Of a DNA stretch of 64,000 nt, positions 4,025 to 48,332 are shown in pieces. The stretch is from Candidatus Planktophila versatilis (GTDB lineage: Bacteria > Actinomycetota > Actinomycetes > Nanopelagicales > Nanopelagicaceae). Position 1 is the stretch's first letter, and each line of letters starts with the position of its first letter. The position numbers were made by a program, and so were the translations under genes. The notes below the pieces were generated by a model. It was not told the DNA's origin. It did no database searches and was given only the letters and a program-made list of their open reading frames with translations. The stretch spans positions 930,001 to 994,000 of the forward strand of contig NZ_CP016778.1 in NCBI RefSeq assembly GCF_002288265.1. The letters are read 5' to 3'.

Positions 4025-7037
<3,013 letters not shown>

Positions 7038-46033: not shown

Positions 46034-46660
46034 CTACAACTTCGTTGCAAGCAACAATCCATCCCCGATTGGAATTAGTGATGTCACCCACGAATCAGTA
46101 TCGGCCTTTACAGCTTTTCCTGCCTCACGCAGAGCAATAGTCTTCGGATCGCGCTGGGCTGGGTCCGGAACCTTGCCACCACCATAAAAATTATCAATCA
46201 CAAAAACGCCGCCACTTCGAAGGATTCTATGTGCTTCAGAGATGGCAAAACTTAAATCCTCCGGATTGTGTCTAAAGACAACCAGGTCATAGGCGCGATC
46301 GGTGAGCTTTGTCATGACATCCATAACCGCATTGGTAATAAATCTAATTCGAGTCTGTGCGATTTCTGCTTCGGCTAGAGCGATTTTTGCAATCGACGTA
46401 TGTTCCATCTCATCATCTATCGATGTCAGAGTTCCGCTTCCAAGCATTCCCTCAAGTAGCCAGAGTGAACCAACTCCAGATCCTGTTCCAATTTCAACTA
46501 CTGACTGTGCCTTAATTTGATGAGCAAGTTGGCGCAGATATGCACCCGTTCCTTGGGAGACATCGATGACTCCATTTTCTTCTCCTCGCGCACGCGCCGC
46601 ACTTTTCACAGTGCCTTCTGCAATAAATGTCTCTGCATAGGTATGCGGGTCAATGTTCAT
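46034..46660 (-). CDS. O-methyltransferase (class I, Rv1220c-like)
   Basis: 208 residues. SAM-binding motif VEIGTGSGVGSLWLL (about 55-69), acidic loop TSIDDEMEHTSIAK and a metal-binding-like sequence DLVVFRHNPEDL. The small-molecule target is unknown. The ATG overlaps the pepA stop by four bases (ATGA), so the few codons upstream in the open frame are rejected. Confidence 0.85.
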   Translation of the reverse strand: MNIDPHTYAETFIAEGTVKSAARARGEENGVIDVSQGTGAYLRQLAHQIKAQSVVEIGTGSGVGSLWLLEGMLGSGTLTSIDDEMEHTSIAKIALAEAEIAQTRIRFITNAVMDVMTKLTDRAYDLVVFRHNPEDLSFAISEAHRILRSGGVFVIDNFYGGGKVPDPAQRDPKTIALREAGKAVKADTDSWVTSLIPIGDGLLLATKL

Positions 46661-48138
46661 GAGAGAGACACTATCCAATCAATGAATAAACGCACGCCGA
46701 ATCCAGTGCCGCCTTTCACATTTTCTCCAGAGTCATTTTCACTACGCCCTGTTCCGGCGATATCGAGGTGCACCCAGCGACTATCTCCGACAAAATGTTC
46801 GAGATATAAGGCTGCGGTGACTGATCCGGCAGAGTAATCTCCCTTATCTGCTGCGTGATTTAGGTCTGCCACATCACTGTCGAGGGAATCGGCGTAATCA
46901 TCGATGAGTGGCATATGCCAGACACGTTCGCCACTTTCCTCGCCGATCTCCATCAATTTCTTAGCAAGTTTTTCATCGCGCGAATACAGGGCGGCATATT
47001 GGCGGCCTAGCCCAAGGGTTGCAGAACCTGTCAGTGTTGCAATATCAATCAGGTAATCCGGGTCGAGGTTTGCCACCGCATAAGCAAGCCCATCGGCAAG
47101 AACGAGTCTTCCCTCGGCATCTGTATTAATGATTTCGACAGTGGTACCGCCATATTGCGTGATGACATCTGATGGTCGCTGCGCACTACCCGAGAGTGCA
47201 TTTTCGGCGCACATCATCAAGACGGTTACTCGCACCTTGGGTTGTAATTGTGGAAGTGCGCTGATAGTTGCAAGGGCGGCAGCCGCCCCCGCCATATCAC
47301 TCTTCATGGCCGTCATAAATTCATAGGGGCGCTTAAGTGAAACACCACCGGTATCAAAGGTGATTCCTTTTCCGACAATGACAATATGAGGTAGCGCTGC
47401 CGCTGAATTGCCACGCATCCTTGGAATATACGAAAGTTCAATAAAGCGTGGTCCAGGTGTTGGCGAGGAGTTTCCCACTGCGCGTAGTCCCCCAAATTCA
47501 GCCAGTTGCTTACCGGCTAATACCTTGATCGCCAATCCACATTCATCTGCAATCTTCTTCGCTTCTTGCGCCATCCACAACGGATTCTTAATATTTGATG
47601 GCGTATGAACTAGATCTCGCGCGGTATAGAGCGCTTTTGCAATGACCGATGCGCGAGTAACAGTTTTTTCATCAAGAGTTGCAATACCAATTCGAGGAAT
47701 CTCAACTTCTTTACCTGTCTTTAAGCTCCACGAATAGGCGCCAAGTAAAGCTGAAACTCCATGCGCTTTAATTTCAGGAGCGCTCTCGGCACAGAGTGAA
47801 ATGATTTCTATTGCTTTTCCACGCACTTTGCGCCCGATAGCTGCGCCAGCTGTGCGATAAGAAGTAAGGGATTGATCTCCGAGACCGAGAAGATAAAGGC
47901 GATCAACGGTGGCATCATCGTGAAGCACGGGAATTTCGTTTACTTCTCCTGCTTTACCAGTCGGTGTAAAGAATGAAACTTCATCAACCAGATTTATCTC
48001 AAAGAACTTTTCGATTTTACTCAGTAACTTCTTGCTTCCAACAAAGGTGATTTCGCCATCTTTAGATTGAATGTATCCCAGTACAAGAACATCTGCTCCG
48101 ATAAGAGAATCTAATTCAGGAGCAACTGCGTGAAGAAT
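46657..48138 (-). CDS. pepA: Leucyl aminopeptidase (M17), probable ATT start
   Basis: 493 residues. The zinc peptidase domain is plain: VIVGKGITFDTGGVSLK, MKSDMAGAAAAL, and the signature NTDAEGRLVLADGLAYA with metal-binding Asp and Glu. The first ATG/GTG/TTG in frame is GTG 47928, which gives only 423 residues and cuts the N-terminal domain. The frame stays open 78 codons further and encodes ADVLVLGYIQSKDG-type sequence typical of the M17 N-terminal domain. The only plausible start there is ATT 48138, 14 bases after the DUF3117 stop. It degrades N-terminal residues of peptides in the cytosol. Shine-Dalgarno support is weak. Confidence 0.85.
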   Translation of the reverse strand: MLHAVAPELDSLIGADVLVLGYIQSKDGEITFVGSKKLLSKIEKFFEINLVDEVSFFTPTGKAGEVNEIPVLHDDATVDRLYLLGLGDQSLTSYRTAGAAIGRKVRGKAIEIISLCAESAPEIKAHGVSALLGAYSWSLKTGKEVEIPRIGIATLDEKTVTRASVIAKALYTARDLVHTPSNIKNPLWMAQEAKKIADECGLAIKVLAGKQLAEFGGLRAVGNSSPTPGPRFIELSYIPRMRGNSAAALPHIVIVGKGITFDTGGVSLKRPYEFMTAMKSDMAGAAAALATISALPQLQPKVRVTVLMMCAENALSGSAQRPSDVITQYGGTTVEIINTDAEGRLVLADGLAYAVANLDPDYLIDIATLTGSATLGLGRQYAALYSRDEKLAKKLMEIGEESGERVWHMPLIDDYADSLDSDVADLNHAADKGDYSAGSVTAALYLEHFVGDSRWVHLDIAGTGRSENDSGENVKGGTGFGVRLFIDWIVSLS

Positions 48139-48152
48139 TTCTTCGGTCCGCT

Positions 48153-48332
48153 CTACTTCTTAATAAGAGCAACTGCGGCCTCAAGGGCTGCGCTCAGGTT
48201 GTTTGCTTCCTGAGGATTAAGTTCAACGACCAGACGGCCTCCACCTTCGAGCGGAATACGCATGACGAGCGAGCGCGCTTCCTTGGTGACTTCCATGGGT
48301 CCATCACCAGTACGAGGTTTCATAGCTGCCAT
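48153..48332 (-). CDS. DUF3117 family protein
   Basis: 59 residues. The start MAAMKPRTGDGPMEVTKE and the core MRIPLEGGGRLVVELNP match the very conserved actinobacterial DUF3117 family (Rv1211 type). Function is unknown. ATG 48332 follows an AAGGAG at nine bases; the in-frame extension to 48371 is rejected. The 3' end is linked to pepA. Confidence 0.9.
   Translation of the reverse strand: MAAMKPRTGDGPMEVTKEARSLVMRIPLEGGGRLVVELNPQEANNLSAALEAAVALIKK

Follow-up and report, generated by a model that had tools for sequence, protein, structure and literature searches.

A conserved AUU codon as the probable start of the leucyl aminopeptidase gene pepA in a clade of Planktophila

Bacteria of the genus Planktophila are tiny freshwater organisms, and their PepA is a housekeeping peptide-cutting enzyme. 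In one clade of these bacteria, pepA is very probably translated from AUU, a codon with which bacteria hardly ever begin a protein; this would give a complete M17 aminopeptidase of 493 residues. To our knowledge, few bacterial genes have a conserved start codon other than AUG, GUG or UUG. The case was met in a stretch of 64,000 nucleotides of Candidatus Planktophila versatilis (NZ_CP016778.1, positions 930,001 to 994,000; hereafter the window), whose genome is a single contig of 1,325,420 bases. Comparison among genomes argues for the position of this start and for its long conservation; the steps by which ribosomes would use it are ones that we infer.

Results

A peptidase frame with no canonical codon ahead of its N-terminal domain

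The pepA frame on the minus strand (46657-48159) is open between TAA 48162-48160 and TGA 46659-46657. The initial annotation had claimed that this frame holds no ATG, GTG or TTG before GTG 47928, and indeed none of the 77 sense codons there is canonical. The ATT that it placed at 48138 is present as well, and translation from ATT 48138-48136 yields 493 residues. The gene end that it gave, 48153, has to be corrected: this is the last base of the stop codon of the neighbouring DUF3117 gene and no coordinate of pepA, and the gene proposed here spans 46657-48138. The features of the region are:

46657..48138, minus strand: proposed full coding sequence of pepA, M17 leucyl aminopeptidase, ATT to TGA, 493 aa (open frame, Pfam, Foldseek)
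48136..48138, minus strand: putative ATT start codon of pepA (ATT in 27 of 28 clade genomes, ATG in one)
48160..48162, minus strand: in-frame TAA, the upstream bound of the pepA frame (read in the sequence)
47926..47928, minus strand: GTG, first canonical codon of the pepA frame, rejected as start (GTG in 3 of 28 genomes at this column; structure model)
48153..48332, minus strand: DUF3117 gene, 59 residues, directly upstream of pepA (PF11314, 1.5e-28)
46034..46660, minus strand: O-methyltransferase gene downstream, overlapping the pepA stop (ATGA), with a possible TTG start at 46678 (PF01596, 8.5e-17)

In the window protein, Pfam finds the M17 catalytic domain (Peptidase_M17, PF00883; 1.4e-104, 350.2 bits, cut-off 25) and the N-terminal profile Peptidase_M17_N (PF02789; 1.1e-05, 25.8 bits against a cut-off of 23.4), the match to the latter beginning only at profile position 34 of 129. 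The best NCBIfam model, NF002073, matches residues 12-489 with its positions 17-498 of 505, so little should be missing at the PepA N terminus. The equivalog cut-off of that model is not reached (395.5 against 432 bits); membership of the family is clear, whereas the equivalog name is uncertain. An AlphaFold model built from 20 sequences gave a mean pLDDT of about 90-95 over the first 80 residues and of 73.7 overall, with the catalytic domain poorly modelled in parts. Its N-terminal domain comprises strands 2-5, 17-24, 30-32 and 66-70 and helices 9-12, 36-46 and 50-56, the first strand of the M17 N-domain thus falling at residues 2-5 counted from the ATT. On this model and the NF002073 match, the N-terminal domain is predicted to be complete from the ATT. 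Foldseek returned M17 enzymes, the best being 8pzm (519 alignment columns, 499-residue chain, TM 0.80/0.79), with E. coli PepA (1gyt) at rank 35. The genome also holds a second M17 paralogue (40% identity), in a frame with an ordinary ATG.

The ATT is retained across a well-supported clade

In a survey of the genus, 135 genomes were searched, and the N-terminal region of pepA was read at 86 loci. Twenty-seven have the ATT, one has ATG at the same place, and 57 of the 58 loci outside the ATT clade have ATG, GTG or TTG before the N-domain; the last (L090) shows none up to the point where its contig ends. On the tree, a clade of 28 genomes (support 100/99, divided into 22 + 6) has ATT in the start column of 27; the remaining one, L058, branches within the clade and has ATG instead. 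The 27 take in the window and three close strains (L033-L035), and their PepA proteins are 68-99% identical to that of the window. The ATT label requires two changes on this tree, and the branch to L058 carries a switch between AUU and AUG. The two changes fit a single origin of ATT with later reversion in L058 as well as two separate origins.

In the 27 ATT genomes the upstream stop stands 4-19 codons ahead of the ATT, and no canonical codon intervenes. Shared in this way by 27 of the 28 clade genomes, the pattern goes beyond chance, and L058 has its ATG exactly at the ATT position. With a conserved position and no usable canonical codon, the reading of this ATT as the start, first proposed from the window alone, appears borne out by the comparison.

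Non-AUG initiation is not restricted to AUU, and the 27 genomes do hold other in-frame near-cognates between the upstream stop and the ATT (AAG in 7, AGG in 4, another ATT in 1, ACG in 1). That PepA starts at such a codon, a different one in different species, is nonetheless an unlikely account: no upstream near-cognate is found at a common distance in more than 3 of the 27, whereas the ATT is found in all of them and is replaced only by ATG.

The internal GTG is shared by few relatives

GTG 47928 is the first ATG, GTG or TTG of the frame, and a gene caller limited to these codons would choose it. PepA would then have a shortened N-domain, and the open stretch upstream would be untranslated. 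Three lines of evidence make this very improbable: firstly, the corresponding column reads GTG in just 3 of the 28 clade genomes, the other 25 having GTT, GTA or GTC; secondly, the first canonical codon to follow the ATT has no conserved position across the ATT genomes, its distance ranging from 17 to 188 codons, and in the extreme case (L039, codon 188) it falls beyond the point where the Pfam match to the catalytic domain begins in the window protein; thirdly, the first 70 residues, which are modelled with high confidence, would be cut away. The stretch before GTG 47928 is also coding-like, with a pN/pS of 0.32 against 0.20 for the rest of the gene, and in the AlphaFold model it forms the opening strands and helices of the N-domain, in agreement with its initial description as the missing N-terminal domain. 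The pN/pS values are supportive only of conservation as protein, because synonymous sites are near saturation (pS ~0.7). We reject the internal start on the unconserved column, the scatter of canonical codons and the loss of a well-modelled domain.

The start column lacks synonymous change

At the level of codons, the start column shows no synonymous change on the protein tree, its single change being the ATG of L058. Among 17 other isoleucine columns (at least 22 Ile rows), 16 need 3-10 synonymous changes and one, column 517, needs none. Likewise, of nine further columns that are always isoleucine in the 27 genomes, eight mix ATT with ATC, ATA or both, and column 517 is again the exception, with ATA in 27 of 27. 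This column lies inside the overlap with the downstream methyltransferase frame, which may explain its invariance; that frame is open and conserved from TTG 46678, and homology to four relatives begins there or at most 2 codons off. The other isoleucine codons of the 27 pepA genes are ATT in 496 cases, ATC in 282 and ATA in 91.

Only seven of 220 amino-acid-invariant degenerate columns are codon-invariant (24 genomes), which speaks for the AUU start; that codon invariance alone, though uncommon, is not unique counts against it. The near-identical strains L033-L035 were excluded from this count, from pN/pS and from the RNA fold described below. Since many relatives have retained AUU, the start looks selected, perhaps keeping PepA production low or adjustable.

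pepA closely follows DUF3117 and has a moderate Shine-Dalgarno-like stretch

The tail of a DUF3117 gene lies directly upstream of pepA in 85 of the 86 loci. In the window, its TAG (48155-48153) ends 14 nt before the pepA ATT; across the clade the spacer from stop to ATT measures 10-15 nt, and the stop codon varies too. The ribosome-binding context is marked by one feature:

48148..48157, minus strand: Shine-Dalgarno-like stretch, discontinuous and moderate, limits approximate (16S 3'-end duplex energy)

The duplex energy of pepA with the 3' end of the genome's 16S rRNA is -5.6 kcal/mol (clade median -5.65), compared with medians of -3.25 for 68 gene starts in the window and -2.4 for 204 internal control sites. 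Pairing is weaker than at infC (-7.0) and at an FKBP-type isomerase gene described below (-7.7), and only discontinuous pairing, with no strong or extended Shine-Dalgarno sequence, was found before the pepA ATT. When RNAalifold was applied to 24 sequences in search of conserved RNA structure near the start, it gave a single weak helix of -2.9 kcal/mol, which is not convincing.

In 12 of the 28 genomes, L058 among them, DUF3117 and pepA share one frame and are separated only by the DUF3117 stop and 4-5 codons, an arrangement that would suit a fusion protein made by readthrough of the DUF3117 stop or by frameshifting. Within the clade, however, the two genes are found in each of the three possible frame relations (remainder 0, 1 and 2 in 12, 5 and 10 genomes, with one more not classed), and the spacer and stop codon vary while the ATT is constant. 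One readthrough or frameshift mechanism therefore cannot serve all of these genomes, and we reject readthrough or one fixed frameshift for the clade as a highly unlikely origin of PepA. The chance that a canonical start was lost through an error of sequencing or assembly is negligible: single-base errors may occur in any single assembly, but the ATT and the missing upstream ATG, GTG or TTG recur in 27 assemblies, including complete genomes of two different isolates (NZ_CP016774.1, CP015603.1).

Other candidate non-canonical starts in the genus

The genome encodes IF3, and infC there appears to start with AUC. Of 70 infC loci across the genus, 52 apparently start with AUC and 18 with GUC. The GTC loci are L124, L127, L128, L135, L149, L151, L152, L265-L267, L269, L270, L274-L277, L281 and L282, and in L124, L127 and L274 the upstream open frame of infC has no canonical codon. 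GGAG lies within 14 nt upstream of the start in 68 of the 70 loci, with GGAA in the remaining two. Because infC keeps an apparently weak start after GGAG, these data suggest that IF3 discrimination is still at work in the genus.

When the 68 ORFs of the window were compared with five genomes, 21 were flagged, and inspection of 10 besides pepA yielded one further convincing case:

4027..4518, minus strand: FKBP-type isomerase gene, probable ATT start 4518-4516 (PF00254)

Here AAGGAG stands 7 nt before the ATT, which overlaps the TAA of the argininosuccinate synthase gene as ATTAA. The start is ATT in 19 of 30 loci read, and six loci of the pepA sister group (L210-L212, L214, L215, L218) have ATG near the ATT place. 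Conservation of this ATT is partly forced, since its last base is common to the argininosuccinate synthase stop codon.

A stricter automatic scan covered 445 stop-to-stop ORFs (167+210+68) in 444 kb of the genome that holds the window, partly false ORFs in rRNA genes, against genome G040 alone, with a filter that asked, in each of the two genomes, for at least 8 conserved codons ahead of any canonical one. This filter misses infC here and also the FKBP gene, which in G040 has an ATG 3 codons in. It flagged 22 rows (8, 11, 3), among which, read by eye, we found no convincing case besides pepA; most were frames in rRNA regions, frames with an ordinary start slightly further on, or short stretches of conservation. 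In one other flagged row, G000:C1:154956-156200 (minus strand), in L247-L248, the 15 codons before the ORF ATG (MSSTVVTLITLILGLFLG...) are conserved at 13 of 15 positions in G040 and contain no canonical start.

Discussion

The mechanism that best accommodates these observations would run as follows. The AUU, a weak start, would be decoded by initiator tRNA as fMet. It would be served largely by ribosomes that have just finished DUF3117 and re-initiate 10-15 nt further on, probably aided by the moderate Shine-Dalgarno-like stretch. PepA output would be low and would drop as IF3 rises, because IF3 opposes both non-canonical starts and re-initiation without a Shine-Dalgarno sequence. In the published accounts, IF3 acts against non-canonical starts (PMC5472188), inhibits them in E. 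coli (PMC2268962) and acts against weak codon-anticodon pairs (PMC10158994), and extra IF3 in E. coli is reported to lower re-initiation without a Shine-Dalgarno sequence almost threefold (PMC2268962). On this analogy, low, IF3-sensitive and DUF3117-coupled translation is the most likely reading for pepA, which would share the kind of control of infC, a gene that starts with AUC in the same species. The ATG of L058 is not expected if low expression is strictly needed, and it counts against such a strict need.

With its putative AUU start, pepA joins a small known kind that comprises infC, pcnB, sigR, cvfC1 and ccpN. The E. coli gene pcnB reportedly starts with AUU, a finding credited to Binns and Masters in 2002; like pepA it would be an AUU gene other than infC, in a different gene and phylum. 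The infC gene is described as starting with AUU in E. coli and AUC in Streptomyces (PMC5472188). It resembles pepA in having a non-canonical start in an otherwise ordinary gene, but the product of infC is the fidelity factor itself, which regulates its own synthesis, whereas pepA encodes a metabolic enzyme; and unlike infC with its GGAG, pepA has only a discontinuous Shine-Dalgarno match.

The Streptomyces gene sigR, with a GTC start repressed by IF3, was the first documented case of such a start to its authors' knowledge (PMC5472188). Like pepA it is actinobacterial, with a conserved non-canonical start and a history of misannotation; unlike pepA, it has GTC, an extensive AGGAGGTG sequence, a regulatory role and experimental proof, which extends to its repression by IF3 (PMC5472188). 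In Staphylococcus, cvfC1 (AUU) and ccpN (AUA) are reported to have conserved starts, found by Ribo-Ret and seen in relatives, from which reporters gave about a tenth of the AUG level, with ccpN reaching up to 30% in rich medium (PMC13009471). These conserved AUU and AUA starts resemble that of pepA, but they have extended Shine-Dalgarno pairing, and cvfC1 is described as first in its operon (PMC13009471), whereas pepA lies closely behind DUF3117. More generally, the non-canonical starts as described in these reports have extensive Shine-Dalgarno sequences (PMC13009471, PMC5472188), in contrast to the discontinuous, moderate one of pepA. A published reconstruction counted one switch to AUU among 61,358 ancestral AUG starts and one among 5,080 GUG starts (PMC5622118).

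A literature search on Planktophila and start codons found no paper, and among the matches listed for an ATT start codon or leucyl aminopeptidase none was by title a bacterial case. The novelty would lie in the gene and lineage concerned, in how many species have the start in common and in the lack of an extended Shine-Dalgarno sequence.

Our results suggest that annotation limited to the three usual start codons truncates PepA in these bacteria. A broader and rather doubtful proposal is that pepA is a stable, selected IF3 target, in which AUU and re-initiation after DUF3117 would couple the recycling of peptides to how IF3 and ribosomes are balanced, as part of a small IF3 regulon set by start codons only (infC with AUC or GUC, pepA with AUU, FKBP with AUU) in genome-reduced bacteria. 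The 27 AUU genomes, together with the change between AUU and AUG at L058, would offer a natural test bed for what maintains a weak start, and with the GUC starts of infC and a second AUU gene, Planktophila seems well suited to mapping the genes that IF3 controls.
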